DNA of 64,000 nt from Flavobacterium acetivorans (GTDB taxonomy: Bacteria; Bacteroidota; Bacteroidia; Flavobacteriales; Flavobacteriaceae). The position numbers were made by a program, and so were the translations under genes. Positions 44,826-64,000 of this stretch are shown here, piece after piece (position 1 is the stretch's first letter; each line of letters opens with the position of its first letter). Location: positions 2,852,001-2,916,000 of the forward strand of contig NZ_CP087132.1 in the NCBI RefSeq assembly GCF_020911885.1, given 5' to 3'. Below the pieces are notes generated by a model. The model made no database searches. It had not been told where the DNA came from and was given only the letters and a program-made list of their open reading frames with translations.

Positions 44826-45203
44826 ATGTTAGAAATTAATAAATTAAGACTTCAACTTATTAATATCCAGATAGGGTGTATATTTAGGTATGCTAGGTTA
44901 AAAAGAGGCATTTCTCAAGATGATTTAGGTTTGTTAATTGGATATTCCTCCACTATGATTGGAAGAGTAGAACGTTTTGAGAATTTTAGTGGCTGGGACA
45001 AAATTTATACAATTTCTGAGGAGTTAAATGAAAATTTCGACAAACTATTTATTTTAAAAACCGAATCGGAACTACTAGATATAGTTAGTGAGTCATTTAA
45101 ATTGGAAGATAGGCTCAATCAAGATAAAATTGATTACTATGATTTTCTCAAAAAGACAATAAAAAACAACTTTACTTTATTGACAAAATTTAAAGATGCC
45201 TAG
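44826..45203 (+). CDS. XRE-family helix-turn-helix protein
   Basis: The protein has 125 residues. An HTH at about residues 18-70 (FRYARLKRGISQDDLGLLIGYSSTMIGRVER) resembles Cro/C1-type DNA-binding domains. The C-terminal half is acidic and helical without a recognised domain. It is short, follows a structured element and precedes the first attC-like element of the right-hand array, so it could control neighbouring genes. A terminator stem overlaps its stop codon. Confidence 0.75.
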   Translation: MLEINKLRLQLINIQIGCIFRYARLKRGISQDDLGLLIGYSSTMIGRVERFENFSGWDKIYTISEELNENFDKLFILKTESELLDIVSESFKLEDRLNQDKIDYYDFLKKTIKNNFTLLTKFKDA

Positions 45204-45216
45204 GCATCTTTTTTTA
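45192..45216 (+). terminator. Terminator overlapping the XRE gene stop
   Basis: The palindrome AAAGATGCCTAGGCATCTTT is followed by a T-run. The TAG stop codon (45201-45203) lies at its centre. Equivalent GAGGC..GCCTC + T-run stems begin the same stretch at about 54113 and 62936. Confidence 0.85.
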
Positions 45217-45426
45217 TGCTCTATAATCAGGTTTTACTAGCGGTAAGACTACTGAAATACAAACTCACATAACTACGAAAAGTCTGCAACAAATAAAAAG
45301 TTCTCCGATAATTTGTAATAAAAATATTATTTATATATTTGGCAATAATGCGCTATTCAATAGTGATTATCTACTCTATTTTGGGTGTATAGCCGCTATA
45401 AGGTAGCGAGTATATACAAGTTAGGC
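45217..45426. repeat. attC-like element B1 (3' part of type B)
   Basis: It runs from TATGCTCTATAATCAGG to the core GTTAGGC at 45420-45426. It shares TACTAGCGGTA-GACTACTGAAATAC, a promoter and the GCTATA..TAGCGAGTATA arms with elements B6 and B12. Only the 3' half of the full type-B element is present. Confidence 0.7.
45312..45341 (+). promoter_or_regulatory. Bacteroidota-type promoter in element B1
   Basis: TTTG (45312-45315), 18 nt, then TATATTTG (45334-45341): this fits the Bacteroidota sigma-factor consensus (-33 TTTG, -7 TAnnTTTG). The start codon of the next gene is about 125 bp downstream, and the sequence between is the remainder of the element. The same TTTG-N18-TATATTTG occurs in element B6. 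Confidence 0.75.
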
Positions 45427-45464
45427 ACAATGCTAAAAAAACTCAACTAACATAACAATATTAT

Positions 45465-46901
45465 ATGAATGAAACTTTAGAGAAAATAGCTAACAATTGG
45501 AAACTAGAAGCAAAGCTTGAAGACAATAATAAGTATTTCTATTATTCAAGCGAAGTTGACAACATCATAAAAAAAGACAAATGCTACATAATAGGAAGAA
45601 AGGGATCGGGAAAATCAGCTATTTGTGAATACTTGATAAAACGAAAAGAACATAATGTTTTTTCAACAAAATTAAGTTTCAAAAACTTCCCTTTTAATGA
45701 GTTATATGGACTTGACAATCAAAAGTACACAGCTCCAAATCAATATATAACGCTTTGGAAGTACTTGATTTATTCAAATGTTTGTAGGCTGATGACAGCA
45801 AATGAAAACATTGATCAACAAATAAGAACCGAACTATCTAAATTATACCCGAAAAATGACGTAAAATCATTAGCTAGGACTATTAGTAATTGGACAAGTG
45901 CTGAATTTGGTGCTACAGTTCTTGGAAATGGAGGCTCATTAAAATTATCTAAAGAAAATAATGCTAATCCAATACCCTGGATAGACAAAGTAAATATTCT
46001 TGAAGATATAATCTTAAACTATTGTGATGATTCTGAGTATTACATTGTTTTTGATGAACTTGATGAGGATTATCGTCAAATTTCGAATGAACCAGATTCT
46101 CAACAGTATGTTTTTTTATTAACTAGTTTATTCAAGGCAGTTCAAGATATTAAATCAACATTTTTAGATACTCACAAAAAAGTAAAGCCTGTTGTTTTTT
46201 TAAGAGATGATATTTATTCTTTAATTAAAGACTCTGATAAAAACAAATGGCGTGACTATAAAATTGATGTTGAATGGAACGAAAAGAAACTTAAAGACCT
46301 ATTAGCTTTTAGAATTTCAAAAGATTTTAATGAAAATATACTTCCACTCCCCTTTCAATCGGCTTGGGACAAAATTTTTCATCGTGAAACTATTGGTTTT
46401 GGAAACAAACAAGAGAAAAAAATACATTCCTTTGAATTTATAGCAAGAAGCACTCAATTAAGACCAAGAGATTTTATTCAATACATACAAGGTTGTTCTG
46501 AAGAAACAAACAACAAAAGATTCAATTTTATTAGAGAAGGTAACATAAAATTTGTAGACCGTGCTTTTTCAAATTATTTACGTGATGAAATTGTTGATGA
46601 AGTTTTTCCTGTACTTCCTGAAATTGAAGAATATATTCAAATATTTGCAAACATTAGAAAGTGGAACTTTACACTACAAGAATTTACAAATGAGTATAAT
46701 AAGTATCTAAAAGCAGGGACAATTAAGGAAAAAAACATAGATTATGTTCTTGACACATTATATAATTTCAGCGTCATTGGAAACCAAAATAAGCATAAAA
46801 AAGAAATTTTTTATTTTAAGTATATGCACACAAATATGACATTTAACAGAACTGAGAACATTGTAATTCACAGAGGACTTTTCAAAGCATTGCAATTATA
46901 A
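45465..46901 (+). CDS. P-loop ATPase, Sll1717-type (defence-associated candidate)
   Basis: The protein has 478 residues. Walker A is GRKGSGKSA (about residues 44-52). Walker B-like YYIVFDELDED lies at about 192-202, followed by a sensor-like VVFLRDDIYSLI (about 246). The C-terminal half is a helical region with RPRDFIQYIQGC. This fits the P-loop ATPase, Sll1717 family, common in defence islands but without a settled mechanism. It is the only gene of its cassette, which begins GTTAGGCACA at 45420 and ends TGCCCCTAAC at 46912-46921. It has no signal peptide, so it is cytoplasmic. Confidence 0.75.
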   Translation: MNETLEKIANNWKLEAKLEDNNKYFYYSSEVDNIIKKDKCYIIGRKGSGKSAICEYLIKRKEHNVFSTKLSFKNFPFNELYGLDNQKYTAPNQYITLWKYLIYSNVCRLMTANENIDQQIRTELSKLYPKNDVKSLARTISNWTSAEFGATVLGNGGSLKLSKENNANPIPWIDKVNILEDIILNYCDDSEYYIVFDELDEDYRQISNEPDSQQYVFLLTSLFKAVQDIKSTFLDTHKKVKPVVFLRDDIYSLIKDSDKNKWRDYKIDVEWNEKKLKDLLAFRISKDFNENILPLPFQSAWDKIFHRETIGFGNKQEKKIHSFEFIARSTQLRPRDFIQYIQGCSEETNNKRFNFIREGNIKFVDRAFSNYLRDEIVDEVFPVLPEIEEYIQIFANIRKWNFTLQEFTNEYNKYLKAGTIKEKNIDYVLDTLYNFSVIGNQNKHKKEIFYFKYMHTNMTFNRTENIVIHRGLFKALQL

Positions 46902-46914
46902 CACGAAGTACTGC

Positions 46915-47816
46915 CCCTAACAGCTAAGTTTTCGTTGCGTGCGTAGCACGAACAATGAAGGCTGTGTTGAACGGAACCGGTCACTGGTAGGTACTATGGA
47001 GTTATCGTAAAATTTTTAGAGGGATTTTGAAGAGGATTTAGTGTCCTCTTTTTTTTGGAGTAGTTTGAGCTTGGTTTTAATGTGTTTTCCCTCATTTCCG
47101 TTTTACCCCCGCCCTTATATTTTTAGACCAGAAAATCCGGGCAAGGATTTGAGCGTTGGCCGGCGGGAGTGACCCCCCGAGTCGAGTGTGAAACACGAGC
47201 GGCTGGGGTCGCGATAGGGAAATGCGCCCGAGATTTTCGGGATCAAAATATTGAGGCTTGATTTTTTTGTTACTTTTTTTATCAAGGAAAAAAGTAAAAA
47301 TAGCTGCTATCCCCTACTCGTTCTAATATGTACGTCAAGCCATCCCTTATGGGGTTTACGATAAATGAATAAGAAGAATTTTATGAGGCCATTGCGTCTC
47401 TTTTTTTATGGCCTATAATCAGGATTTCTAGCAGTACAGCATTGAAATACAAACCCATACATGTATTTGAAGGGCAATTTGCAGGGGAGCCTTACAGTGT
47501 TGGTAGCGCTCAATCCGTTATGCGACAAGCGTTAAAAAAATCTGGATTATCTAAAAGCGATACAGTACATACCTTACGTCATAGTTTTGCAACTCATTTA
47601 TTAGAAAATGGAACAGATATTAGATACATTCAAAAATTCCTAGGGCATGTCAGTATCAAAACCACCACCATCTATACCCATATTTCAAAAATAGCCACTG
47701 ATAAAATCTTAAGTCCATTGGATCGTTTAGTTGATGAAAATAACAAGAAAAAACTGAATGAATAGTAGAAAACATCCAAAAAGATGTATATATTTGATGT
47801 TATAGGCAAGTTAGCA
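46915..47816. repeat. attC-like element B2 (type B, contains recombinase fragment)
   Basis: It starts CCCTAACAGCTAAG directly after the ATPase gene. It carries CGTTGCGTGCGTAGCACGAAC and GTGTTGAACGGAACCGG, then the GC-rich module (about 47105-47220). Next come an AT-rich stretch and TTCTAGCAGTACAGCATTGAAATAC, which runs into the recombinase fragment (47442-47765). TATATTTG is at 47789-47796 and the core GTTAGCA at 47810-47816. The other type-B elements have a short non-coding segment in place of the recombinase. Confidence 0.7.
47442..47765 (+). pseudogene. C-terminal fragment of a tyrosine recombinase/integrase
   Basis: The 107 residues cover only the C-terminal catalytic part of a XerC/XerD/IntI-like enzyme. 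[12 protein letters not shown] carries the Arg and His box, [10 protein letters not shown] the second His, and IYTHISK the Tyr nucleophile. The N-terminal core-binding domain and the first catalytic Arg are missing. The frame is open upstream only to a stop at 47370 and has no ATG start (TTG at 47442). FEGQ near the start is typical of the family. It is probably a remnant of the enzyme that moved the surrounding cassettes, but it could be from an unrelated element. It is unlikely to be active. Confidence 0.85.
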
Positions 47817-47851
47817 GTAATTTTAAAATTCGCGACCAAAACTAAACTTAA

Positions 47852-48730
47852 ATGAAAATATTTATATCTCATAGTAGCAAAGACAAAAAATTTGTTAGAC
47901 ATTTAAAGGATTGTTTACTAGAAAACACAATTGAGACGTGGATCGATGAAGACCAACTTGATTTTGGCGATAGTTTAGTAAACAAACTAGAAAATGCCCT
48001 AGAAGAAACTTCTCACCTAGTGATAATCCTATCTCCTGCATCGATTGAATCTGACTGGGTAAATTTTGAGTTAAAAAAAGCACTCGAAAATCAGCGAACT
48101 GGATTAATACAAAAGATTATTCCTATCAAATATAGAGAATGCAAAATTCCAGATGAATTATCAGACTTGCTATATGCAGATTTATCAAATGAAGTTGTTC
48201 TTCCAACTGATAACAATAGAGTTAAATTTATTTCAAATGGTTTTGATATTTTTTTCTTGAACTTGGTAAGAGCCATTAAAAATTCAGCAAAAATCATTAA
48301 CCAAGATGAGAAAAAAGAAATTATTAAATCGATAAAATCATCCGAAAAGGAAATAGAAATACATTCTAATTTAATTCACAGAGGAAATTATGAATTGGTT
48401 GGTTATGCGACACTTGAAGCGCGAATTAAATACCAAAATCTTATATTAAAATCAAACCCTCAATTTGAGGATATTGATGATATAAGACCAATACTTTTAC
48501 CATTAAGTTTGAAGAAAATATTCACTCCTAAAATAGGGGACAAAATTGAGGTTGAACATGAATTGCCTTTCCCAACTTATGGGCATTTCGCTGGCTATCG
48601 AATTGATGATTTAAAAATCACAATAGATAAAAGAACTCGAAATGGAGCGGATATTGATGCAAGACACTTCTATCAAGTGGAAATCGATCCAGAAAAGAAT
48701 TTAATAAAATTTGTGAATAAGATTAGATAA
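47852..48730 (+). CDS. TIR-domain protein with unknown C-terminal domain
   Basis: The protein has 292 residues. A TIR domain is at residues 1-135 (MKIFISHSSKDKKFVRHL, ETWIDEDQLDFGDSL, the catalytic-type Glu in SIESDWVNFELKKAL). Bacterial TIR domains with this layout often hydrolyse NAD+ in anti-phage defence. The linker is helical. The C-terminal about 110 residues (from GNYELVGYATLEARIKYQ) form a beta-rich domain I do not recognise, which could be the sensor. It has no signal peptide. The single-gene cassette runs from GTTAGCA (47810) to CCGCTAAT (48739-48746). Confidence 0.85.
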   Translation: MKIFISHSSKDKKFVRHLKDCLLENTIETWIDEDQLDFGDSLVNKLENALEETSHLVIILSPASIESDWVNFELKKALENQRTGLIQKIIPIKYRECKIPDELSDLLYADLSNEVVLPTDNNRVKFISNGFDIFFLNLVRAIKNSAKIINQDEKKEIIKSIKSSEKEIEIHSNLIHRGNYELVGYATLEARIKYQNLILKSNPQFEDIDDIRPILLPLSLKKIFTPKIGDKIEVEHELPFPTYGHFAGYRIDDLKITIDKRTRNGADIDARHFYQVEIDPEKNLIKFVNKIR

Positions 48731-48740
48731 AAAAACACCC

Positions 48741-49024
48741 GCTAATAAGCAAGACTTCATGCGGTCTGCAAGACCCAGCAAGAAGTCGCTTATGAACGGA
48801 ACTGCAGGTAGTTAAAAGTGAATGCAAATTTCGGTTTATCCCTTCCCTAAAGGGAGCCGAAAATGAGGGCGTGTGTCTTCTAAACTTGAAAAGCGCATTT
48901 GCTGCCGGGAAATTCCGGTGAGCTGTTACATTCTTAAATATACAACTTTTCTTTCTTTTATTTTATATTAAGTGTTATATTTGAAAGAAATAAACGGAAA
49001 TTTTTTCACAGACTGACGTTAGGC
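48741..49024. repeat. attC-like element B3 (type A)
   Basis: GCTAATAAGCAAGACTTC opens the element and pairs with the GAAGTCGCTTAT segment near 48790. Next is the hairpin ATTTCGG...CCGAAAAT (48827-48864), then TATATTTG (48976-48983), the tail ACGGAAATTTTTTCACAGAC and the core GTTAGGC at 49018-49024. Confidence 0.7.
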
Positions 49025-49057
49025 AACATTTTAAACGAACATCTTGAGTAAAAAAAC

Positions 49058-50476
49058 ATGAATGGATTTAGACTTTATAGTTTAGAAATAGACAACAAAT
49101 TAATTAGTACTGAAAGAATTGGATTAATTAATGACTTTGAATCTAGCGAATCTAATGACAACTATTTCTCTTTAATAATTGGTAATAATGGAACTGGAAA
49201 AAGTAGAATTTTAAGTGAAATAGCAAGATTTTTTAATAGTTGGAATACAAATACAAACCAACATTATTTATTTAAAGATTCTCATTTTGAATTCAATAAA
49301 ATTCCATCTAAAATAATTGCTATAACAAATAGTATATCTGACAAATTCCCAGTTGACCAAAGTTTTAGACCATCCTTACACTTATCACACGAAATATATT
49401 ACAAAGATTTTAAATACAATTATTTAGGCACAAGAAATAGTGTTAATAGCTTTTCAAATCGAGCATTAATGAATCGAGCTCTTGAAATAGTATTTGAAAG
49501 CTATTCTCAACTTGATGTTTCAAGAAATTATAGACACATTTTTGACTATTTAGAATATGAGCCAATAATTAAGTTGAATTACAAATTTTTACGTTCATTT
49601 TTTGAAACAATTAATGATGTAACTCCAAACTCGTTAGTAAGTTATGTAGAGAAATCCAATTCTAATCGCTTTTCTTACATGAGTGAGACCCTTTTAAATG
49701 TTATTAAACAAAGAGCAATCGAAATCTGTGATTTCATCAAAGATAAATTGCACAATGAAACTAGAGTACATGAGTTGACAATCAATTTTTCAGAAAAAAA
49801 TATCGGTAGAATACGAATAGATAATTCACTATATAGCGAAAATGTTTATGAGTATGAAATAATAAGTATTTTAAGGAAAATTGGATTAATACGAACATTC
49901 GAAATTCAAGTATTTAAAAAAGGTGGGATGCCCTTTAATTTTAGAGAAGCTAGTTCAGGTGAAGCTAATATATTATCCACATTGTTATCACTTATCCCAT
50001 TATTAAAAGATGATAGTTTAATTTTAATTGATGAACCTGAAATAAGTTTACATCCTCAATGGCAAACAAAATATATAGATTTGCTTAATAAAATCTTAGA
50101 AAATGTTGCTGGTTGTCATGTAATAATAGCTTCACATTCACCTTTTTTAGCATCCGATTTAAAACCAAATAACTCATCAGTCATATCTTTAAGAAATAGA
50201 AAAGGTATAATTTATTCTAAAACAATCGATAAATCAACCTATGGATGGTCTGCAGAAGATATTTTATTAAATGTCTTTGAAATGCAATCCACTCGTAATT
50301 TTGATCTTTATGAAAATGTTTCCAAAGCACTTGTTTTATTAGCAAACAATGATAGATCAGATCATGAATTGCTTAGAATTCAAAATAAATTACGAGAATT
50401 TTATCCTTCTATTTTGGATAAAGACCCTATGAAATCCGTTATTAAAGCTATATTTCAAGCAAATTCTAATGAGTAA
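49058..50476 (+). CDS. Septu-like AAA/ABC ATPase (PtuA-type)
   Basis: The protein has 472 residues. Walker A is IIGNNGTGKS (about residues 42-51), the ABC-type signature SSGEANILS lies near 305, Walker B SLILIDEPEISLHP near 324 and the switch His in IIASHSPFLA near 350. This layout (SMC/OLD/RecF-like ATPase without a TOPRIM domain) is that of PtuA, the ATPase of Septu anti-phage systems. Its stop overlaps the start of the HNH gene by 8 bp (50469-50476), giving strict co-expression, as in ptuAB. Other ATPase-HNH pairs exist, so the Septu name is by likeness. Confidence 0.82.
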   Translation: MNGFRLYSLEIDNKLISTERIGLINDFESSESNDNYFSLIIGNNGTGKSRILSEIARFFNSWNTNTNQHYLFKDSHFEFNKIPSKIIAITNSISDKFPVDQSFRPSLHLSHEIYYKDFKYNYLGTRNSVNSFSNRALMNRALEIVFESYSQLDVSRNYRHIFDYLEYEPIIKLNYKFLRSFFETINDVTPNSLVSYVEKSNSNRFSYMSETLLNVIKQRAIEICDFIKDKLHNETRVHELTINFSEKNIGRIRIDNSLYSENVYEYEIISILRKIGLIRTFEIQVFKKGGMPFNFREASSGEANILSTLLSLIPLLKDDSLILIDEPEISLHPQWQTKYIDLLNKILENVAGCHVIIASHSPFLASDLKPNNSSVISLRNRKGIIYSKTIDKSTYGWSAEDILLNVFEMQSTRNFDLYENVSKALVLLANNDRSDHELLRIQNKLREFYPSILDKDPMKSVIKAIFQANSNE

Positions 50477-51086
50477 TAGAATTTTAATCCCATATAATTT
50501 CACAATATTAGAGACATCAATAATTGCTCAATATTTTAGTAGTCATTCTGATTGGACAAAACCAGTATTTGATCCAATAAAAGTTAATATTATTTCTCAT
50601 TTGAGAACACAGCAAAATAATAGGTGTTGCTATTGTAAATATCAACTTGGTTTTGACATTAAACAAGTAGACATAGAACATATCGTTCCAAAGTCAGAAT
50701 ATGAAATTTTTACTTTTAAAGCTATAAACTTGGCATTAAGTTGTCCTGCTTGCAACACTAAGAAAAGTACTAAACCAGTTTTAAACAGTAGTATTGTAAA
50801 TTATCCTTTGAACGGCACAAATTTTAAGATAATTCACGCTCATTATGACGACTATTCAAATCATATTGATATTTTCAATGATTGTGTATTCGTAGCAAAA
50901 ACATCAAAAGGAAGTGAAACTATAACTTTTTGTGAATTATTTCGATTAAGTACAGTGGAGCAAAGAGCTAAAGCTTACCAAAAGACAAGTCCAACCTACC
51001 TAGAACAACTAGTTGGAGATTTAAAAAATGGAAATCCTCAAATTAAAAAAGAATTGATTGATATAATAAAAGATGCAATACGTTAA
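50469..51086 (+). CDS. Septu-like HNH nuclease (PtuB-type)
   Basis: The protein has 205 residues. An HNH endonuclease domain is at about residues 50-105 (CCYCK, then VDIEHIVPKS with the catalytic His, then Asn in INLALSCPACNTKK). The two Cys pairs form the structural zinc site. The C-terminal half is helical and may contact the ATPase. It is translationally coupled to the ATPase gene through an 8-bp overlap. Together they form a two-gene cassette between GTTAGGC (49018) and TGTTAAC (51097). Confidence 0.82.
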   Translation: MSNRILIPYNFTILETSIIAQYFSSHSDWTKPVFDPIKVNIISHLRTQQNNRCCYCKYQLGFDIKQVDIEHIVPKSEYEIFTFKAINLALSCPACNTKKSTKPVLNSSIVNYPLNGTNFKIIHAHYDDYSNHIDIFNDCVFVAKTSKGSETITFCELFRLSTVEQRAKAYQKTSPTYLEQLVGDLKNGNPQIKKELIDIIKDAIR

Positions 51087-51096
51087 AAAAAACGTT

Positions 51097-51401
51097 TGTT
51101 AACAGCTAAGGGTTCGTTGGGCTTGAAAAGCCAGCGATGAAGCCTGTGTTGAACGGAACCGGAGGTTGTGAATGGTGAAAAGTAAGTTGTGAAAAGTGAG
51201 TGGGATTTTCGGTTTACCCCTTCCCTAAAGGGAGCCGAAAATGGAAACGTATGCCTTCTAAACTTGAAAAGCCTATTTTATCAAGAGAAATTCCGGTGAT
51301 GTGTTGCCTTCTTAAAAATAAGAATAATCTTCTTTTTAAATTAGTATTTTATTATATTTGAGGGTAATGAAACGGAGGTTTTTCAGAGGTTGACGTTAGC
51401 A
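51097..51401. repeat. attC-like element B4 (type A, best-preserved)
   Basis: It starts TGTTAACAGCTAAGG-TTCGTTGGGCTTGAAAAG and GTGTTGAACGGAACCGGAGG. The hairpin ATTTTCGG...CCGAAAAT follows at 51205-51242, then GAAATTCCGGTGATGTGTTG and the promoter core with TATATTTG at 51353-51360. The tail AACGGAGGTTTTTCAGAGGTTGAC leads to the core GTTAGCA at 51395-51401. The outer ends GTTTGTTAAC and GTTAGCAAAC are complementary except for one base. Confidence 0.75.
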
Positions 51402-51426
51402 AACATTTAAAACAAAGAATACGCAT

Positions 51427-52728: not shown

Positions 52729-52733
52729 ACGTT

Positions 52734-52924: not shown

Positions 52925-52949
52925 AGCATTTAAAAGACAAAAACAAACA

Positions 52950-53543: not shown

Positions 53544-53558
53544 TGGCAGAAAATAAAC

Positions 53559-54340: not shown

Positions 54341-54477
54341 CATTGCTCCGTGGAAATCGACAAATTTACGTTAATGAGAAAGAAAAAATGAAACCTAATC
54401 TGCTTCTAAGCTACTGACGAAAATCGAGCGCAATTAATTGCACCCAACGGGTTTAAGTATATTATAAAACATTAATT

Positions 54478-55755: not shown

Positions 55756-55845
55756 TTTGAATTCATTGTTGTCCGATAAAAAATTTCAGAAGGTTAATTT
55801 TTCTATATATTTAAGTGCTTAACTAGTGTGTCACAACAATCGCTA

Positions 55846-57750
55846 ATTGAGTAGACGGCTCCGCCCCTAATGGAACGGAGTGCGCCTCTCACACCACCGA
55901 GCGTACGGGTCACGTACTCGGCGGTTCGCAAAGAGATGGATTAAGTGAGATGTAAACATCGGTCAATGATTGATACCCTTTTTGTTTTAAGCGTTTCAAG
56001 GTTATGGTAGTTCCCAAGATTGGACTCTGAGCAATTGCCCAACCACCTTTGCGAGTTCGACTCCATGCATAGGCGTGGTCTTGATCAATTCCTAATCGAA
56101 TTAGGTTTTTCCTTTTCCTCTCAGGTTTCTTCCAATCGTGCCAAATGCAGTATCGAAGTCGGTTTCTGAGCCAGCCATCTATATCCCGTAATTTCCCCAT
56201 GATACTCGTTCCTCGAAAATAGTTTAACCATCCTCGTTGGATTTCGTTTATCTTGATAATACGGTCTTCTAGTTTGACTGGTGCAGTTTTGCGGCTAATA
56301 CTTTTGAGCTTTTCTTTTAGTTTCTTCCAAGCCTTTTCTACTACTACCAACTGGTATTGGTTTTTGCTCCCTTTTTGATACGTAGGTACAAACCCAAATC
56401 CCAACAAGCTAAAGTTCACAGGACGTCTAATCCCGCTTTTATCAGCATTGATGGTAAGTTTGAGCTTCGTTTTCAAGAATTTGGCAATGACAACTGCCGT
56501 GGCTTTCGCCTGATTCTGCGATTTAGAGTAGATACTGAAATCATCGGCATAACGTACAAATTTTAGTTTACGTCTTGTCATTTCTTTGTCCAACTCATTG
56601 AGCAGGATATTAGACAATAACGGACTCAAGGGAGAACCTTGCGGAACGCCTTTTCTTCGTTTTTGTAGTTTGCCGTTAATCAGTATCGGTACTCGCAACC
56701 ATTTACGCATCAGGCGCATCGTGGTTTTGCATTTCACTTTTTGGTACACCAAATTCAACAGCAAGCAATGGTCAACTTCATCAAAGAAATTTTTCAGGTC
56801 AATGTCCACAATGTGGTTCAATCCCTGATGGATGTATTCCCTCGCTTGCCCAACGGCTTGTCGGGAGTTTTTGCTGGGTCTAAATCCAAAACTGTTAGTA
56901 CTGAATTCGGGTTCAAATAGTGGCGCTATAACCTGTGCTACGGCTTGTTGGAACACTCGATCGGTAGTGGTGGGAACTCCCAAAAGTCGTGTTTTTCCGT
57001 TGCCCTTGGGAATCTCAATGCCCAAAATGGCTTGTGGCAAGTAGTTTCCCTCTCTGACGGCTTCGAGCAATTGGTCTTTCCTTTGGGGAAATAGCATTTT
57101 AAGTTGACTTGTTTTTATACCATCAACTCCTGCGCTTCCTTTGTTGGAAATCACTTGCTCTACTGCTTTTTGCAGATTGTAAGGATGTACTACGCTCTCA
57201 ATCATTTTGTTGTTTTAATCGTTTAACCTGTTCTTGTTTTTCAGGGCTATAACTTGCGTTATTCCGTTGAAAATTAAGAACCATTTTGCGTTCGGTCCTT
57301 CCTTGTTTGTGAGTCCTATGCGGTATCTATTCGCAACTCGTTGCCCCAAGTACTATGACCTCTGCTGACTTCTTGACATAACCAACTCGTGGTTGCCAAG
57401 ACCTCCCCTGGTAAGAACTTTTTCCTTTGTCCAATCTCTGCGGCATCTACTGAAATACGATTTTGGTAACCTTCGGACGTTGCAATGGTGTGCTTGCTTA
57501 TCCTCGTATAACAGCCTCTTATGCCGTTTCTGTTCGTCAGTACCGGACTTTGTCGTTTCGCTTCCTTCAGTTCTGGTTTCACAACTAACAACCTTGCGAC
57601 GTACTAATGATTCGGGGTTTCAATCCGCTCATAAGGGACTTACACCCTCTGGAAAAATAACACTCTGCAAGTTTGATTTATAATCCGAAATTTGTATTTT
57701 TCAATTTTTAATCGAGCTTACAGAGTGTGTCCTGCTCATGCAGGGCACAC
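55846..57750 (-). mobile_element. Complete group II intron (1,905 bp) inserted in element B7
   Basis: On the minus strand the intron begins GTGTGCCCTGCATGAGC (consensus GUGYG, position 57750) and ends CGTCTACTCAAT (AY, position 55846). A domain V-like hairpin (GCCGAGTACGTGACCCGTACGCTCGGTGG) lies about 55 bp before the 3' end, and a domain VI-like stem (CTCCG...CGGAG) follows. Domain I-type sequence (GTGTAAGTCCCTTATGAGCGG) is near 57640. One ORF, the reverse transcriptase, lies inside. Both boundaries are fixed because excision restores the host element. It is inserted between T and T of the bottom-strand core (GTGTGT/TAGCGAT) and faces opposite to the cassette genes, as known for introns that target integron attC sites. 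Confidence 0.9.
55910..57205 (-). CDS. ltrA: Group II intron reverse transcriptase/maturase
   Basis: The 431-residue protein has RT domains with IPKGNGKTRLLGVPT, GFRPSKNSRQAV, the catalytic VRYADDFSIY and VPQGSPLSPLLSN. A maturase X domain (about residues 290-370, EIQRGWLNYFRG) and a C-terminal RTRKGGWAIAQSPILGTTI follow. No HNH endonuclease domain is present, so mobility would rely on the RT and ribozyme with nicking at replication forks or folded DNA. Length and absence of the endonuclease fit introns that invade hairpin-forming targets such as terminators and attC sites. It starts 545 bp from the 5' intron end and stops 64 bp before the 3' end. Confidence 0.93.
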   Translation of the reverse strand: MIESVVHPYNLQKAVEQVISNKGSAGVDGIKTSQLKMLFPQRKDQLLEAVREGNYLPQAILGIEIPKGNGKTRLLGVPTTTDRVFQQAVAQVIAPLFEPEFSTNSFGFRPSKNSRQAVGQAREYIHQGLNHIVDIDLKNFFDEVDHCLLLNLVYQKVKCKTTMRLMRKWLRVPILINGKLQKRRKGVPQGSPLSPLLSNILLNELDKEMTRRKLKFVRYADDFSIYSKSQNQAKATAVVIAKFLKTKLKLTINADKSGIRRPVNFSLLGFGFVPTYQKGSKNQYQLVVVEKAWKKLKEKLKSISRKTAPVKLEDRIIKINEIQRGWLNYFRGTSIMGKLRDIDGWLRNRLRYCIWHDWKKPERKRKNLIRLGIDQDHAYAWSRTRKGGWAIAQSPILGTTITLKRLKQKGYQSLTDVYISLNPSLCEPPST

Positions 57751-58085
57751 ACACACGCTACAAGCAATTTGGGCATTTGGCTTAATTTAAAGATGGTTTT
57801 GTATTTGGAATATTTGGCAAATCCGAAGAATGGTCTTAATTTAGTCCCAAACTACTTGTAGCGCGGGGACGTTATGCGGGAGTTGTGCGAAATTCGCAGA
57901 CATAATCAATCCGAAAATAAACATTTGGTTCCGCAAGAAGTATACAAAGCAGAAGCGTGAAAGTTAGAACTTGCCAGCAGAAACTTGAAAAGTTGAAACC
58001 TAAAAAGTAGAAATGTAAAAATCGGAATTTTGACAAAACAACACAATTTAGATTTAGCAGAAAATAATTTTTTAGTGTTTGAAAT

Positions 58086-58457
58086 ATGAAACGGATATTA
58101 GCATTTGGATTTTTAAATAGTATAATACAAACTGTATTTTATTCCTTCCTCCTTGCATTAGTTTATTTAACGATAACGCCAAATCAAAAACTAGTTATAG
58201 GAACTATATTTCCTTTTATTATACTGGCTTTTTTCATCATCGTATTAATTCAAAACGTGTTAACTTCAATATTGAACAGAAAAACATTTACTTGGATATT
58301 TTTTATCTTGTCGGTAGGATTATTTTCGTTACCTATTTTTAATCCATTTAGAATTTTGATTTCGTTGTTGTTTTGTTTACTAATCGTTTTGATTTTATTA
58401 ATCCCTATGTTTATTAAGAAGAAGTTTATAGCAATTGAAACGAAAAAAAGGGAATGA
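58086..58457 (+). CDS. Small integral membrane protein, cassette gene
   Basis: The protein has 123 residues and four strongly hydrophobic segments (about 4-26, 34-58, 68-86, 90-112), ending in a basic tail (KKKFIAIETKKRE). No family is recognised. It is the only gene of a cassette with perfect 10-bp complementary ends (GTTATGCGGG at 57871, CCCGCATAAC at 58552). The leader between the core and the ATG is 208 bp with no extra ORF. Confidence 0.6.
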   Translation: MKRILAFGFLNSIIQTVFYSFLLALVYLTITPNQKLVIGTIFPFIILAFFIIVLIQNVLTSILNRKTFTWIFFILSVGLFSLPIFNPFRILISLLFCLLIVLILLIPMFIKKKFIAIETKKRE

Positions 58458-58551
58458 AATTAGCTGAGATTTGGGCAAGAATTGGGTTTTGTGCCTGCCG
58501 AAAATAGGCTGAAAATCGATTAATAATTGGAAATATCAGCTAGAAACAACC

Positions 58552-58687
58552 CCCGCATAACACACGCTACAAGCAATTTGGGTTTTAGGCTTAATGGGAA
58601 GTTGGTTTTGTTTTTCGGATGATTTGGCAAATCCGAAGAATGGGCTTAATTCAACCACAAACCCGCTGTAGTGCCAGAATGTTGTAT
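58552..58687. repeat. attC-like element B8 (type C, intact)
   Basis: CCCGCATAACACACGCTACAAGCAATTTGGG opens the element (quoted as two joined motifs). The right arm CACAAACCCGCTGTAGTGCC pairs with the left arm, and the core GTTGTAT is at 58681-58687. Inner segments GGCTTAATGGGAAGTTGG and GGCAAATCCGAAGAATGGGC form the loop. At about 130 bp it is the most compact complete copy and a good reference for the type. Confidence 0.85.
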
Positions 58688-58705
58688 GCTATTTTAACAC
58701 AAAAA

Positions 58706-59125
58706 ATGAAAAAACACATCATATTGTCATTATTTTTTTTATTTGTACTACTACTTTCTTCTTGTGAAAAAGTTTATATTACTAAACTTAGAAATTCTAC
58801 GGAAACAGACTTAGTTTTAGAAATAATTCTTGATAAAGATTCTGTAAATAAATATAATAACCACCTAAAAGAATCTACAATAATTAGTTTTAATAATGGT
58901 GGTAAGCTTATAAAAATTGATTCGACAAATTATATTGCGACTTTCTTACTCAAATCTAAAGAAGAATATGCTTTCGAAGGCGGATTAGGTAAAAAACCTA
59001 AATTCACGGAAATTTCTAAAATTAATATTTATGGAAAAGAAACTTTGAGAATGAATTCTAGAGCAGAAATGTTTAAAAACTTTGAAGAAGAAAGTAATCG
59101 ACAATATGTCCTAGAAGTTAAATAA
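58706..59125 (+). CDS. Small lipoprotein, cassette gene
   Basis: The ATG at 58706 begins a lipoprotein signal (MKKHIILSLFFLFVLLLSSC, Cys20); upstream in-frame starts lie within the attC-like element and are rejected. The mature protein of about 120 residues is rich in Lys/Glu and Asn and predicted to form alternating strands (TDLVLEIILDKDSVNKY). It is not recognised. Cassette limits are 58681 and about 59139. Confidence 0.65.
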   Translation: MKKHIILSLFFLFVLLLSSCEKVYITKLRNSTETDLVLEIILDKDSVNKYNNHLKESTIISFNNGGKLIKIDSTNYIATFLLKSKEEYAFEGGLGKKPKFTEISKINIYGKETLRMNSRAEMFKNFEEESNRQYVLEVK

Positions 59126-59130
59126 AAAAG

Positions 59131-59167
59131 GTATACAACGGAGGTTTTTTATAGACTAACGTTAGGC
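59131..59167. repeat. attC-like element B9 (minimal, 3' tail only)
   Basis: GTATACAACGGAGGTTTTTT then ATAGACTAAC and the core GTTAGGC (59161-59167). This is the same tail as in B10 (ACAACGGAGGTTTTTTCACAGACTGAC) without the hairpin and promoter. The cassette starting GTTGTATGC ends GTATACAAC, a 7- of 9-base complement, although part of that is the shared tail. Confidence 0.6.
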
Positions 59168-59192
59168 GAACTTTAATACTGAACGATAGTCT

Positions 59193-59930
59193 ATGAACTT
59201 AGTGATATTAATATTGATTTTTTCATTAATCCTAATTTGGGGATTATTCAGAACCAAAATCAAAGGAGTTATTGGAGAGAAAACTATTTCTTCAATCTTA
59301 TATTTTTTAGATAAATCTAAGTATAAAGTCATTAATAATATTGTTTTAAAAACAGGTGAAATAACTTCACAAATTGACCATGTAGTAATTTCTGATTTTG
59401 GAATATTCGTTATTGAAACAAAAAATTACAAAGGCTGGATTCTTGGAGGTGAAAACTCGGAATATTGGACTCAAGTTATATACAAACGTAAAGAAAAACT
59501 TTATAACCCAATACGACAGAACTTAGGTCATATAAGAGCTTTAAAAAACTGTCTTACTGAATATCCAAATTTAGAATATAAGTCTATTATTGTTTTTTCC
59601 ACAAAAGCAAAAATCAAAGTAAATACAATAACTGATGTAGTAAATTCATATCGACTCATAGCAACGATTAAAAGATACTCATGTGAAAACCTCATAGAAA
59701 CTGAAAAAGAGAATATCTTCCAAAAAATCAATGCATTAAATTTGATTGATACATATGACAAACGCCAACATAATAAATCAATTAAACAAAGAATTCAAAA
59801 ACGAGAGAATTCTATTCGAGAAAATCAATGTCCTCAATGTGGCGACAACTTAATAGTTCGCAATGGAAAATTTGGAAAATTTTTAGGTTGTGAATCCTAC
59901 CCGCAATGTAAATTCATTAGAAATATTTGA
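59193..59930 (+). CDS. NERD-domain protein with C-terminal topoisomerase-type zinc finger
   Basis: The protein has 245 residues. One N-terminal membrane helix (about 1-19) is followed by a NERD domain (about 28-140: GEKTISSIL, QIDHVVISDFGIFVIETKN with the D-(x)n-E-x-K nuclease core). A helical linker leads to a four-Cys zinc finger (about 208-242: CPQCG...LGCESYPQC) of the topoisomerase I type. NERD proteins are nuclease-like and appear in DNA processing and defence contexts. The membrane anchor suggests it acts on DNA at the inner membrane. It is the only gene of its cassette (start GTTAGGCGAA, end TTCGCCTGGC). Confidence 0.85.
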   Translation: MNLVILILIFSLILIWGLFRTKIKGVIGEKTISSILYFLDKSKYKVINNIVLKTGEITSQIDHVVISDFGIFVIETKNYKGWILGGENSEYWTQVIYKRKEKLYNPIRQNLGHIRALKNCLTEYPNLEYKSIIVFSTKAKIKVNTITDVVNSYRLIATIKRYSCENLIETEKENIFQKINALNLIDTYDKRQHNKSIKQRIQKRENSIRENQCPQCGDNLIVRNGKFGKFLGCESYPQCKFIRNI

Positions 59931-59940
59931 TTACATAAAC

Positions 59941-60119
59941 TTCGCCTGGCTGGCGCATCTTGCTTGTGTTGATATTCCGTACAAAGGTCGCCTTTGATAA
60001 CGGGAAATTCCGGTGATGTGTTGCATTCTTAAAAATAAGAATAATCTTCTTTTTATATAGGGATTTTGTTATATTTGAGGGTAATACAACGGAGGTTTTT
60101 TCACAGACTGACGTTAACT
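59941..60119. repeat. attC-like element B10 (type A, hairpin lost)
   Basis: TTCGCCTGGC (59941-59950) is complementary to the cassette start over 7 bases. After GGTCGCCTTTG come GAAATTCCGGTGATGTGTTG and the promoter core with TATATTTG at 60070-60077. The tail ACAACGGAGGTTTTTTCACAG ends at the core GTTAACT (60113-60119). Confidence 0.75.
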
Positions 60120-60190
60120 GTACGTTTCGTAAGACGTCAAACATACCATCACGATTAGTAATATTAGAATAATGCTTAAGTCTTAAAGTT

Positions 60191-61150
60191 ATGAGAAAGG
60201 CTAGAATTAGTGGAACTGATGAGATTGTCCAAGCAGACGATCTACTCAAATTTTATCCAAATTACAACGACCTTATATTTGTTTGTATCGACGAAAAATG
60301 TTCTGTTCGAATGGCTCCAGCATGCATAAAGAAAAAAGATCACAGGAAGCCTCATTTCAAAAAATACAGAAATCAGGAACATATTGAAACCTGTGAATAT
60401 GCCAAATTAAGCAAACTCTATCACCAAGGAAAAAATCAAAAACTGAATAAAACAGAAATCAAAAAAATTGGTTATCCGTCGGTTTTTATTTTAAACGAAG
60501 ATAAACTTGAGGAACCGACAACATTTCAAGCCAAATATGGTAATGATGATGGTGTAACTGGTCGCGGTGACGGAATTACTAAAGTTTACGAGTTCGATGG
60601 CGAAAACGTAAAATTTGACAAAAGCAATAGAGTTCAAGGTATCGATAGAATCGTAGATTGGTATTTAGGGTTTCCTCACAATAGGGATGTGGAAATAGAG
60701 ATAAATAGCGGAAGAATTCAATACCGTTATTTCTTTAAACATATAAAAGATTTCACAGATCCAGCAAACTTGCAAAATGAACGAATATTTTATGGCAGAA
60801 TAATGTTATCAGAAATGAATAGAAATGTTTTTGATCGATATACAGAAAACGTTTTTTTTAAATTATTAGGTTACAAAGATAAAAACGAAAAAAATGTGTC
60901 CAACTATTCTGTGAAGATAGATAAGAATTCCATATCTAAACATAGTTTATCAAGACTCAAAAACAGATATAACCACTTGTTTGAAAGGGCATTTACGGAA
61001 CATAAAAATAAAACGAGTGAACAAAATATAGGGCTATATCTCTTCGTCTATGGAAAACTTGATGAACATAATGACACTTTGTTAAATGTCAAACGACAAT
61101 ACATTACATTTAGGCATGATGAAGTTAGAAAAACAATTATTGAAGAGTAA
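60191..61150 (+). CDS. CoiA-like zinc-binding protein of unknown function
   Basis: The protein has 319 residues. The N-terminal about 70 residues carry a putative zinc site resembling the N-terminus of competence protein CoiA and related nucleases (CIDEKC, KKDHRKPHFKKYRN, HIETCEYAK). The rest is a mixed alpha/beta region with no motif I can assign; GDGITKVYEFDGENVKF and REVEIEIN-like strands could hide a divergent nuclease core. No signal peptide is present. It is the only gene of a cassette starting GTTAACTG and ending CAGTTAAT (7 of 8 complementary). Confidence 0.6.
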   Translation: MRKARISGTDEIVQADDLLKFYPNYNDLIFVCIDEKCSVRMAPACIKKKDHRKPHFKKYRNQEHIETCEYAKLSKLYHQGKNQKLNKTEIKKIGYPSVFILNEDKLEEPTTFQAKYGNDDGVTGRGDGITKVYEFDGENVKFDKSNRVQGIDRIVDWYLGFPHNRDVEIEINSGRIQYRYFFKHIKDFTDPANLQNERIFYGRIMLSEMNRNVFDRYTENVFFKLLGYKDKNEKNVSNYSVKIDKNSISKHSLSRLKNRYNHLFERAFTEHKNKTSEQNIGLYLFVYGKLDEHNDTLLNVKRQYITFRHDEVRKTIIEE

Positions 61151-61202
61151 ACAATTACACAACAGTATTAAAAAGAAAGTATAAATTAAAAAACAAAACC
61201 TG

Positions 61203-61369
61203 CAGTTAATAGTTAGCGTTGCGTGCGCAGCAAGAATAATGAAACTCGGGTTGAACCGAACTGGAGGTGGTTTATAAAGAGGATAATTATAGCTTAAATC
61301 GCCTATATTTACTTTCTAATTAACAAAAATCAGTTCGTTTAGAGGTTTTTAGATGATCTGAGGTTAGTG
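61203..61369. repeat. attC-like element B11
   Basis: CAGTTAATAGTTAGCGTTGCGTGCGC opens it, then GAAACTCGGGTTGAACCGAACTGGAGG as in other elements. The middle is short and AT-rich. It ends GAGGTTTTTAGATGATCTGAG and the core GTTAGTG (61363-61369). There is no TATATTTG motif or CCGAAAAT hairpin in this copy. Confidence 0.65.
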
Positions 61370-61443
61370 GTAATGGTTGGAAATCGGTTCGAACAGACAA
61401 ACAAGACTGAAAAAACATAAATTTGTAGCATATAAAAATAAAA

Positions 61444-62427
61444 ATGGACAAACGATTTACGGACATCATTCAACTTATTAAGCAATCTCGGACGAATGCT
61501 ATTAGAGCCGTAAATGCCGAACTGATTAACCTCTATTGGAACATAGGAGAATATATCAGTAAGAAGATTGAACAGTCGCAATGGGGCGGCTCTGTGGTAA
61601 CAGAGTTGGCTAAATACATTCAACAAAATGAGCCTGAAATAAAAGGCTTCTCCGATAAGAATATTTGGAGAATGAAACAGTTTTACGAGACTTATAAGGA
61701 CTTTTCAAAACTCGCAACGCTGTTGAGAGAAATTAGTTGGTCTCATAATTTGGCAATATTTTCAAGGTGCAAAACTGCTGAAGAAAGAGAATTTTATTTG
61801 AAACTATCCAAACAAGAACGTTACAGTGTCAGAGAACTCGACCGACAAATTTCGGCTAGCCTTTTCGAGCGTACAATTATAGGCAATTCAAAACTCTCGA
61901 CAGCGTTGAGAGAAAGTAATAACGAACTAACAAACACTTTTAAAGACAGTTATGTGTTTGAGTTTTTGGGTTTACCTGAGACGCACAGCGAAAATGATTT
62001 ACAACGAGGACTGGTAAGACAAATGAAGAATTTCATACTTGAACTTGGAAAAGACTTCTTATTCATAGGTGAAGAATACAAGTTGCAAGTTGGTAACAGC
62101 GATTTTTTCATCGACCTACTTTTCTATCACCGTGGATTACAATGCTTAGTTGCATTTGAACTCAAAGCAGACATGTTTAAGCCAGACCATTTAGGACAAC
62201 TGAACTTCTACTTGGAAGCATTAGACCGAGACATAAAGAAACCAAATGAAAATCCGAGTATAGGAGTTTTATTGTGTAAGGACAAAGATAGTGAAGTTGT
62301 CGAGTATGCTTTAAGCAGAAGCCTCTCTCCAACAATGGTTTCAGAGTATAAAACACAACTTCCTGACAAAAAAATATTGCAACAAAAATTACACGAGCTG
62401 TTCGACAATGAAACAGATGAAAAATAA
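61444..62427 (+). CDS. DUF1016/PDDEXK nuclease-domain protein (YhcG type)
   Basis: The protein has 327 residues. A DUF1016 N-terminal domain is at about residues 5-140 (LINLYWNIGEYISKKI, WGGSVVTELAKY, GFSDKNIWRMKQFY). A PDDEXK nuclease domain follows at about 160-320 (DFFIDLLFYHRGLQCLVAFELKAD, with the Asp and the Glu-x-Lys core, then GQLNFYLEALD). The family is widespread in genomic islands and in integron cassettes and is thought to act on DNA. The length is normal for the family and the protein is complete. Confidence 0.92.
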   Translation: MDKRFTDIIQLIKQSRTNAIRAVNAELINLYWNIGEYISKKIEQSQWGGSVVTELAKYIQQNEPEIKGFSDKNIWRMKQFYETYKDFSKLATLLREISWSHNLAIFSRCKTAEEREFYLKLSKQERYSVRELDRQISASLFERTIIGNSKLSTALRESNNELTNTFKDSYVFEFLGLPETHSENDLQRGLVRQMKNFILELGKDFLFIGEEYKLQVGNSDFFIDLLFYHRGLQCLVAFELKADMFKPDHLGQLNFYLEALDRDIKKPNENPSIGVLLCKDKDSEVVEYALSRSLSPTMVSEYKTQLPDKKILQQKLHELFDNETDEK

Positions 62428-62429
62428 AA

Positions 62430-63168
62430 CCACTACTGCCAATAGCCAGAGTTCGTTGGGCTTGAAAAGTCAATAATGAAACTCCTATTGAACGGAACCA
62501 GAAGTTGTGAGTCGTGAGAAGTGAATGGTGAGTGGGATTTTCGGTTTACCCCTTTCCGCCGCGGCGGAAGCCGAAAATGAGGGTGTAATTGTTTTTTAAG
62601 CCGCCCTTATATTTTTAGACCAGAAAATCCGGGCAAGGATTTGAGCGTTGGCCGGCGGGAGTGACCCCCCGAGTCGAGTGTGAAACACGAGCGGCTGGGG
62701 TCGCGATAGGGAAACCGAAACGCAGTGAGGTTCATCGAACACCAATAACAATAAGGGATTAGTGAGATAAATGCGCCCGAGATTTTCGGGATCAAAATAT
62801 TGAGGCTTGATTTTTTTGTTACTTTTTTTATCAAGGAAAAAAGTAAAAATAGCTGCTATCCCCTACTCGTTCTAATATGTATGTCAAGCCATCCCTTATG
62901 GGGTCTATTATAAATGAGTAAGAAGAATTTCAAGAGGCCATTGCGCCTCTTTTATTATGCTCTATAATTAGGTATTACTAGCGGCAAACTACTGAAATAC
63001 CAACCTATGTAAGTACGAAAAGTATCCAACAAATAGAAAGCCCGTTTGATAATTTGTAAGAAAAATTGAATATATTTGAAATATAATAATGTAGGAGGTT
63101 TATCACTACAATCTAAACAAAATTAGGTGTATAATAGCGACCACGTTATTACTATACACTAGTTATAA
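62430..63168. repeat. attC-like element B12 (type A/B hybrid, altered hairpin)
   Basis: It begins around CCACTACTGCCAATAGCC and carries GTTCGTTGGGCTTGAAAAG and ATTGAACGGAACC. The hairpin at 62537-62578 has an inner palindrome TTCCGCCGCGGCGGAA in place of the usual TCCCTAAAGGGA. The GC-rich module (about 62600-62712), an insert not seen elsewhere (CGAAACGCAGTGAGGTTC, about 62715) and the AT-rich stretch follow. Terminator-like GAGGCCATTGCGCCTCTTTTA precedes a TATATTTG segment (63071-63078) and the core GTTATAA (63162-63168). Confidence 0.65.
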
Positions 63169-63193
63169 ACAATTATAAAAAAAGAATATAGTC

Positions 63194-63976
63194 ATGAAAG
63201 TATTTATTAGTTGGTCTGGTGAAAGGAGCCGAAAAGTAGCAGAATTACTTGACGACTGGTTGCAATGTGTAATTCAAGCTGCAGAGCCATGGATGTCAAG
63301 TAAAGACATTGATAGAGGTGCATTATGGTTTACTGAAATTTCAGACCAGCTTGCTGGAACGGGAATTGGAATTGTTTGCTTGACAAAGGAAAACAAAGTT
63401 AAACCATGGATTTTATTTGAAAGCGGTGCTCTAGCAAAAGGAATTTCTTCTAATAGGGTTTGTACATTATTAATTGATTTAAAACCGACAGATGTTGAAA
63501 ACCCTCTAGCTCAATTTAACCATACAAAACCAAACAGAACAGGACTTTGGGAATTAGTTAGAACTATTAATGTTGCTCTAAAAGAAGAATCTTTAAAAGA
63601 AAGTATTTTAGAAAAAGTATTTGATACTTACTGGCCTCAATTTGAAGAGACTTTTAAACTTATTATTAAAGAAACCCCCGAAATGGAGGTAGAAGAAGTA
63701 AGAAGTGAAAATGACATACTGATTGAATTACTTTCTTCTGTTAGAGGAATGGATAGAAGAATGAGAATGGTTGAAAACAGAGAAATACATAATCTCAATA
63801 ACCGTGAATTGGATATAAACAGAAGACGTCCAAGAGCTTCGGAAGCTGAAAAAATGATTATAGAAATGCTTGATTCTAATATGTCACCAGAAATTGTTCA
63901 AGAAATTATGGATGACAGAAGAGTTCCATTAACTTTTATAAAAGAAACGATTGAAAATTATTTAAAGAATAAATAA
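63194..63976 (+). CDS. TIR-like domain protein with C-terminal helical region
   Basis: The protein has 260 residues. The N-terminal about 140 residues look like a TIR-superfamily domain: MKVFISWSGERSRKVAELL, WMSSKDIDRGALWFTEI, IGIVCLTKENKVKPWILFESGAL with the Glu of FESGA at the catalytic position. The middle is a coiled coil. The C-terminal segment (EAEKMIIEMLDSNMSPEIVQEIMDDRRVP) resembles a small helical oligomerisation or adaptor domain. It is related to nucleotide-binding TIR proteins of bacterial immunity. The cassette starts GTTATAAAC (63162) and is followed by ACTGTTTAACAGCTAG at 63976. Confidence 0.8.
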   Translation: MKVFISWSGERSRKVAELLDDWLQCVIQAAEPWMSSKDIDRGALWFTEISDQLAGTGIGIVCLTKENKVKPWILFESGALAKGISSNRVCTLLIDLKPTDVENPLAQFNHTKPNRTGLWELVRTINVALKEESLKESILEKVFDTYWPQFEETFKLIIKETPEMEVEEVRSENDILIELLSSVRGMDRRMRMVENREIHNLNNRELDINRRRPRASEAEKMIIEMLDSNMSPEIVQEIMDDRRVPLTFIKETIENYLKNK

Positions 63977-63978
63977 CT

Positions 63979-64000
63979 GTTTAACAGCTAGAGTTTCGTT
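63979..64000. repeat. attC-like element B13 (start only, cut by window end)
   Basis: GTTTAACAGCTAGAGTTTCG repeats the opening of other elements (AACAGCTAAGxTTCGTTG). It shows that the array continues beyond the window. Confidence 0.7.

Follow-up and report, generated by a model that had tools for sequence, protein, structure and literature searches.

An array of integron-type cassettes with an integrase remnant in Flavobacterium acetivorans, very probably part of an integron family of Bacteroidota

Introduction

In the circular cassette of an integron, R'' of the attC site pairs with an R' that is formed from the cassette's own start, and in the classical attC this pairing of cassette ends covers about 7 nt. 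We analysed a stretch of 64,000 nt of Flavobacterium acetivorans (contig NZ_CP087132.1 of assembly GCF_020911885.1, positions 2,852,001 to 2,916,000 of the forward strand; hereafter the window), in which the region between 45 and 64 kb very probably is an integron cassette array whose platform, an integrase remnant together with an attI site, is that of a Bacteroidota integron family. These Bacteroidota systems share with IntI integrons, and with the clusters of attC sites lacking integron-integrases (CALINs), the tandem cassettes of mostly one gene or gene pair each, the RYYYAAC/GTTRRRY cores, the G|TT junction and hairpin attC, the attI adjoining the integrase gene, and the insertion of a group II intron into R'' at GT/T. 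They differ from IntI integrons in that the recombinase falls outside the clade of IntI and is without the additional domain of the latter, the integrase gene is directed towards the array with its stop codon abutting attI, the pairing of the cassette ends extends over about 15 nt, position 11 being a constant non-match, and the integrase often carries an N-terminal extension of about 300 aa. With XerA/XerC-like recombinases (NF040815) the integrase has in common the C-terminal catalytic domain and the spacing from the K motif to HxLRH, and one 395-aa member (L106) even scores over the NF040815 cut-off (221.6 vs 220), whereas an adjacent attI and cassette arrays set the Bacteroidota platform apart.

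Nemergut et al. (2008), in the part of their paper drawn on here, took the additional domain as one criterion for intI and named the Bacteroidetes/Chlorobi group among the carriers (PMC2426708). According to passages of the IntegronFinder 2.0 paper, an earlier study of the same authors had found in Bacteroidetes only In0, i.e., integrases without cassettes, to which that paper adds one complete integron, from Salinibacter ruber (PMC9024848), and reviews, as far as drawn on here, name Bacteroidota among the integron-bearing phyla (PMC8618304, PMC9668308). No account of a platform such as the present one was found in the open-licence literature, a scope that leaves out preprints and most subscription journals, and an earlier description is possible. 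The observations reported below concern the anatomy of the sites, the covariation of their hairpin, a pairing rule, the exactness of junctions in relatives, shared cassettes and intact platforms.

Results

Layout of the array and pairing of cassette ends

The accepted genes between 45 and 64 kb all lie on the plus strand, as the first-pass annotation of this DNA had stated, with the sole exception of the open reading frame (ORF) of a group II intron (55910-57205, minus strand), the position of which inside one attC had been overlooked; the remaining minus-strand frames are short and overlap plus-strand genes or elements. The non-coding elements between the genes are mutually related. Each unit starts at G|TT and ends with AAC or a mutated triplet such as AAT, after which AGCTA.. 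or ACACGCTAC opens the element, which finishes with GTTRRRY before the next unit (Table 1).

The start of a cassette is complementary to its own end and much less to the ends of other units. Among 13 units (one of them outside the window), the own start agreed with the reverse complement of the own end at a mean of 8.15 of 12 positions, against 4.28 for the ends of other units (156 control pairs), and 0 of 200,000 permutations matched the observed sum, with two units that the script mislocated (c6 and c12) retained at their scores of 2 and 3. The start of cassette 5, GTTATAGAGC, is complementary to its end GCTCTATAAC at 11 of 12 positions, as is the start of cassette 7, GTTATGCGGG, to its end CCCGCATAAC. 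Element comparison and permutation test together bear out the earlier claim of related elements that run from a YAAC-type start to a GTTRRRY end. In relatives, 132 of the 137 attC hits of the covariance model described below (truncated or repeated ones being removed) delimited 112 cassettes with a median length of 749 bp, and in all 108 with a readable R'' taken together the agreement between own start and own R'' was far over control. Thirty-seven of these had originally been chosen by a pairing walk, and the other 71 serve as an independent recount: agreement was 85-97% at positions 4-9, 66% at position 10, 3% at position 11 and 85-89% at positions 12-15, versus 34-68%, 51%, 1% and 33-65%, respectively, in same-array controls (662 pairs). 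Position 11, the constant non-match within the pairing of about 15 nt, was A in the starts of all 44 walked cassettes. The integron features of G|TT joints and of a start complementary to the own R'' were therefore found both in the window and in relatives.

If the elements were dispersed intergenic repeats, such as terminators or palindromes resembling repetitive extragenic palindromic (REP) sequences, without a role in recombination, this would suit the long repeats within the composite elements and the reappearance of element parts elsewhere in the genome. That explanation, which the first-pass annotation had named among those that would overturn its proposal, is contradicted by the unit-specific pairing of start and R'', and the cassette sharing, the exact junctions in relatives and the intron targeting described below speak against it as well, so that we consider it barely credible.

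The composite elements of the window consist of a short hairpin of about 60 bp that terminates in GTTGAACGG, repeats, a TAnnTTTG-type promoter box and G|TT. By the pairing rule a cassette begins at the distal G|TT, though the short hairpin resembles a separate attC. Repeats of more than 300 bp, from two adjoining families, lie within the composite elements at 47109-47423, 53830-54145 and 62601-62972. By eye, attI-like leaders at 45.3, 54.2 and 63.1 kb, plus one at 64.3 kb outside the window, resemble the leaders of the second integrase size class described below, the one at 45.3 kb being like those behind intact integrases of about 345-395 aa.

Table 1. Positions of the features of the array in the window, and of IS91-type units at other loci
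Feature	Position	Strand	Description
attI-like leader	45300..45419	+	by eye: TATATTTG promoter box, hairpin, ..GTATATACAAG before G|TTAGGC
Cassette 1	45420..46921	+	start GTTAGGC; ORF 45465-46901, Sll1717-family P-loop ATPase; R'' ends 46921
Integrase remnant	47442..47765	+	107 codons from the C-terminal end of a gene for a tyrosine recombinase of about 590 aa
attI-like site	47766..47812	+	-7 box TATATTTG, ends ..AAG|TT; like the stretch behind integrase genes of relatives
Cassette 2	47810..49018	+	TIR-domain gene 47852-48730; R'' (CTAAT) ends 48746; composite element to 49018
Cassette 3	49018..51395	+	PtuA/PtuB-like (Septu) pair 49058-50476, 50469-51086; element 51101-51395
Cassette 4	51395..52918	+	erythromycin-esterase-like gene 51427-52728; attC-like element 52738-52918
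Cassette 5	52918..54332	+	ORF ending 53543; composite element 53566-54332
Cassette 6	54332..57871	+	MutS-like gene 54478-55755; attC interrupted by intron; pairing by eye
Group II intron	55846..57750	-	1905 nt; RT/maturase 55910-57205; at GT/T of attC R'' (bottom strand)
attC	57739..57880	+	model R1, 59.5 bits
Cassette 7	57871..58681	+	ORF 58086-58457
attC	58549..58690	+	model R1, 37.9 bits
Cassette 8	58681..59161	+	ORF 58706-59125; R'' ends 59139
Cassette 9	59161..60113	+	NERD-nuclease/Zn-ribbon gene 59193-59930; R'' mutated (GGC); pairing 11/12
Cassette 10	60113..61363	+	PD-Lambda-4_B-like gene 60191-61150; R'' (AAT) ends 61210
Cassette 11	61363..63161	+	YhcG-type PDDEXK nuclease gene 61444-62427; R'' (AAT) ends 62443; composite element
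Cassette 12	63162..64000	+	extends beyond window; TIR-TM gene 63194-63976; R'' 63983-63985; start by eye
IS91-type transposase + tyrosine recombinase unit	L009 8957-11294		
IS91-type transposase + tyrosine recombinase unit	L010 10070-12156		
IS91-type transposase + tyrosine recombinase unit	L108 2324-4915		
IS91-type transposase + tyrosine recombinase unit	L266 8002-9944		

A covarying attC hairpin

A cassette walk by the pairing rule downstream of the integrases of relatives, which overran the real arrays, gave 54 candidate sites; ten without arms were removed by hand, and 39 of the remaining 44 formed alignment A1, with five duplicates or odd types excluded. In these 39 sites 91.7% of the cells were paired, covariation was 0.587 versus 0.155 after shuffling and at most 0.139 after sliding, and 18 of the 22 hairpin pairs showed changes on both sides. 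The attC of relatives measures about 140 bp. In it R'' and an A are followed by a stem of 11 bp, a small internal loop, a second stem of 7 bp and a variable loop, and about five nt separate L' from R'. A conserved hairpin of variable sequence, as in the attC of integrons, was thus found for the 39 sites of relatives, and the window contributes two good fits.

With the covariance model R1, derived only from genomes other than that of the window, 28 loci (274 kb) returned 137 hits, all on the same strand as the integrase; this total includes the 39 building sites of the model and counts one place twice (L090 lies within L126). Besides the two attCs of Table 1, R1 matched the window partially at 18551-18635 (E 0.014), and the whole genome has eight R1 sites at E <= 0.1. 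An Rfam scan returned two intron families only and no attC match.

The intron in the attC of cassette 6 encodes a protein assigned to the reverse transcriptase (RT)/maturase family, and its junctions read ..GTAGCGTGTGT|GTGTGCC .. CTACTCAAT|T... Three copies of the 1905-nt intron, each with these junctions, occur in the genome stretches examined, and all three interrupt R'' of the attC bottom strand at GT/T, which is the insertion expected of the IIC-attC group, reported at TTGT/T in attC R'' (PMC7923331, in the part drawn on here). An independent mobile element therefore treats these sites as attC.

Exact junctions and shared cassettes

Two Chryseobacterium plasmids have a common backbone and are 95.8% identical over 1190 bp in the integrase region. 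The identity continues past the stop codon and the attI leader, halts at CATATAAACAAG|TT and gives way to unrelated sequence, with three R1 attCs behind the integrase on one plasmid and none on the other. The comparison at G|TT that had been suggested at the outset thus found divergence exactly at the attI G|TT, in comparisons drawn between relatives, not between strain pairs of the window species. One of the two plasmid-borne Chryseobacterium platforms (L265 and L266) is annotated as 'site-specific tyrosine recombinase/integron integrase', and an IS91-type two-gene unit lies behind the integrase on the L266 plasmid.

Whole cassettes are also shared or duplicated. A cassette of 1525 bp is 99.2% identical in two species (G552 and G461), with edges 13-24 bp outside the junctions, and where the edges overrun them the neighbouring attCs are alike. 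G345 carries two copies, 100% identical, of a cassette of 1149 bp, and the edges of the match fall 2 bp from the junctions; tandem related cassettes were found in G537 (97.9%) and G314 (79.9%). G|TT boundaries, own-end pairing, shared and duplicated cassettes and the covarying hairpin all support the arrangement of integron attC sites and cassettes that the first-pass annotation had proposed.

An integrase remnant in the window and intact platforms in relatives

The region had been described as lacking a functional integrase. This holds in so far as the array contains only a 107-codon remnant; the remnant and its attI (47442-47812) had been missed, and relatives carry the integrase intact. The remnant ORF has TIGR02249 as its best model (model positions 242-315, 98.5 bits) and is 65-90% identical to homologues of 560-620 aa in relatives. 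It is the top single TIGR02249 stretch of the genome, in which no hit attains the model cut-off. Two identical-scoring ORFs of 330-340 aa adjoining IS91-type transposases have two weaker TIGR02249 stretches apiece; considered as the lost platform integrase, these recombinases were ruled out, since they accompany the transposases. The remnant starts directly at the end of one copy of the long repeats, which suggests that recombination between repeats deleted the 5' part of the gene. Because a like attI stretch stands behind the remnant and behind the integrase genes of relatives, the window platform is a truncated copy, and the window array is, judging from this likeness, a decayed member of the Bacteroidota integron family.

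A homologue search of 299 genomes of the genus (that of the window included) gave 182 with a homologue at E <= 1e-18, a count that includes other recombinases. The closest homologues of the remnant lie in open frames of 564-621 aa, in at least 27 genomes besides its own. Behind 25 of 27 integrase genes, at most 78 nt past the stop codon, a like attI stretch ends in AC(A/T/G)AG|TT, usually with a TAnnTTTG box; for the other two, one contig ends too early and the site of L098 seemingly lies farther downstream. The sequence beyond attI differs among all 24 loci with enough downstream sequence. The integron arrangement of attI beside the integrase gene, with differing first cassettes at the junction, is therefore present in relatives, and the window retains the remnant and attI.

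A second size class, commoner in the genus among the matches listed, consists of weaker homologues, the frames of which mostly measure about 345-420 aa. Fourteen of 16 such loci, selected for downstream room, carry R1 arrays with 111 hits, none of which was used for the model and one of which is on the opposite strand, overlying a plus-strand hit. The platform ORF was located by script in six of the 16, with attI 87-148 nt past the stop codon (one by eye). R1 hits behind a recombinase were found in F. enshiense DK69, F. aciduliphilum, Flavobacterium sp. BFFFF1 and F. odoriferum, likewise in Arundinibacter roseus, Algibacter onchidii and Aquiflexum sp., and weakly (23-28 bits) in a Prolixibacteraceae metagenome-assembled genome. 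Residues R, K, H, R, H and Y, which we take to be the catalytic residues, are invariant across the aligned recombinase sets. Intact members thus appear to encode, just upstream of attI and on the cassette strand, a catalytically complete tyrosine recombinase that measures about 345-620 aa and often has a long extension at its N-terminus. In the 590-aa integrases (L078-L104) the extension shows by eye three repeats of a motif that is single in the 395-aa form.

It is unlikely that cassette movement depends not on the platform integrase but on a recombinase acting in trans, either the tyrosine recombinase of an IS91-type unit or XerC/XerD. Two units of IS91-type transposase and tyrosine recombinase do lie beside attCs in the window's own genome, and a 75% identical unit was found inside a cassette in G410, but the arrays follow the platform integrases directly, and attI lies at the stop codons of the latter or close by.

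Relationship of the recombinase to IntI

For the 590-aa integrase TIGR02249 was the best NCBIfam model and IntI4 (2a3v) the best PDB match, and with the common core G|TTRRRY/RYYYAAC and the hairpin logic this would suit an ordinary decayed IntI integron (CALIN) from another phylum. Integrases scored 217.2 (the 590-aa protein), 208.8 and 198.5 bits, and missed the curated cut-off of 265. The distance from the K motif to HxLRH was 65-66 aa in the Bacteroidota rows versus 107-108 aa in 13 IntI rows from other phyla, counted where the motif was found (it was unfound in about a third of the rows; residue numbers of L078 give 66). The IntI insertion of about 41 aa, the additional domain before HxLRH, is therefore absent, and the alignment to 2a3v is interrupted at its place. 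In a tree of 79 recombinases the 19 IntI formed one clade (Shimodaira-Hasegawa-like approximate likelihood ratio test, SH-aLRT, 100), outside which the 590-aa Flavobacterium proteins and the Prolixibacteraceae protein formed a separate clade (99). Membership in IntI was ruled out by the missed cut-off, the absent insertion and this position. TIGR02249 at E <= 1e-60 found none in the 299 genomes of the family, yet in the positive control (E <= 1e-40) it found all six IntI genomes, each at E 1e-134 or better, and none of four Bacteroidota integron genomes. Conversely, R1 found no site in 18 IntI-bearing loci, in which the presence of canonical attCs was not confirmed. A decayed IntI integron is accordingly very unlikely, even though a larger clade of IntI and the attC-bearing Bacteroidota was not rejected (approximately unbiased test, p-AU 0.267). 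That regrouped topology test set 25 attC-bearing Bacteroidota and 19 IntI rows against 21 non-Bacteroidota rows, with 14 of the 79 rows omitted (one Xer row from the genome of the window, and 13 rows, from Bacteroidota or unplaced, that lack a confident attC). A previous rejection of the joint clade at p-AU 1.9e-63 was withdrawn, as the attC-bearing L143, L146, L155, L157, L160, L172 and L174 had been grouped among the 'others'.

Distribution across Bacteroidota

R1 matched 141 of 296 Bacteroidota genomes (E <= 1e-4) in 79 of 139 genera, with 124 genomes left at 1e-8 and 102 at 1e-10. It matched none of ten genomes outside the phylum. A further 28 recombinase loci included 21 from outside Bacteroidota, and R1 gave no match in any of these 21. 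The covariance search of Bacteroidota genomes that the first-pass annotation had proposed, here with a covarying hairpin model built on sites of relatives, bore fruit, and, in correction of its remark that Bacteroidota are not known as rich hosts of integrons, the phylum proved rich in R1 matches. Lone strong attC hits in the small genomes (2.2-2.6 Mb) of L227, L242 and L243, from another family of the phylum, are possibly lone mobile cassettes.

Discussion

By sequence comparison the integron family represented in the window appears widespread in Bacteroidota, and its recombinase is without the hallmark domain of the known integron integrases. As the hairpin suggests, the recombinase would bind the folded bottom strand of the cassette attC and join it at G|TT to double-stranded attI or to another attC. 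Cassettes in the form of free circles could be captured in this way beside the promoter box of attI and then expressed, and the anatomy of the loci suggests that the array would grow away from the integrase. In the window the integrase gene is reduced to its last 107 codons, and the array is therefore presumably frozen unless a recombinase acts in trans.

Several points weigh against this reading. For recombination, cassette circles and expression the reading draws on sequence comparison. The covariance model from other genomes detects only two of about 12 window elements; the rest are composites, for whose make-up of hairpin, repeats and promoter the reading does not account. Many similar stretches end inside cassettes (for example internal copies in L118, L111/L112, the IS91-type unit), and sharing of whole cassettes accounts for only part of the sharing. 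R1 found no attC in seven of the 28 loci, some of which have little or distant downstream sequence, nor in two of the 16 second-class loci (L254 and L263). The phylum count includes the window's own genome, with at most ten candidates scored per genome, and five of the 141 genomes depend on E values between 1e-6 and 1e-4.

The recombinase is likely to represent an ancient sister branch of the integron recombinases without the IntI domain. It is possible, though doubtful, that integrons arose twice, with a Xer-like recombinase lineage of Bacteroidota acquiring the capture of cassettes through folded attC hairpins independently of IntI; the IntI domain would then be non-essential, and the uptake of single genes by flavobacteria would be explained. 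We lowered our estimate of two origins because one clade with IntI was not rejected in the regrouped test. A 2026 paper on Riemerella anatipestifer, in the part drawn on here, describes homology-independent uptake of aph(3')-IVb, in which a unit of 27 bp, the gene and a 140-bp attC-like 3' stretch integrates whole and without flanking homology (PMC13148043). Its authors, in that part, found no integron and named no recombinase, and the likeness drawn here is one of description; by analogy the uptake would fit the present cassettes.

Among the window cassettes, models of defence systems matched the PtuA/PtuB (Septu) pair (49058-51086), the TIR gene of cassette 2, the PD-Lambda-4_B-like gene of cassette 10, the YhcG nuclease of cassette 11 (as PDC-S02) and the TIR-TM gene of cassette 12. 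If the present reading is true, a phylum thought to be almost free of complete integrons has such sites in about half of the sampled genomes, which would have gone unseen because both integrase and attC lie outside the usual definitions. The need for the IntI additional domain in the recombination of folded attC would become directly testable, and a possible explanation would be at hand for homology-free uptake of single genes in a flavobacterium, as described in part in PMC13148043. Such a family would also make a large reservoir of cassette genes accessible, and in the window several of these genes are phage-defence-like. Were integrons to have arisen twice, the second system would be the way in which single genes for resistance and defence enter flavobacteria.

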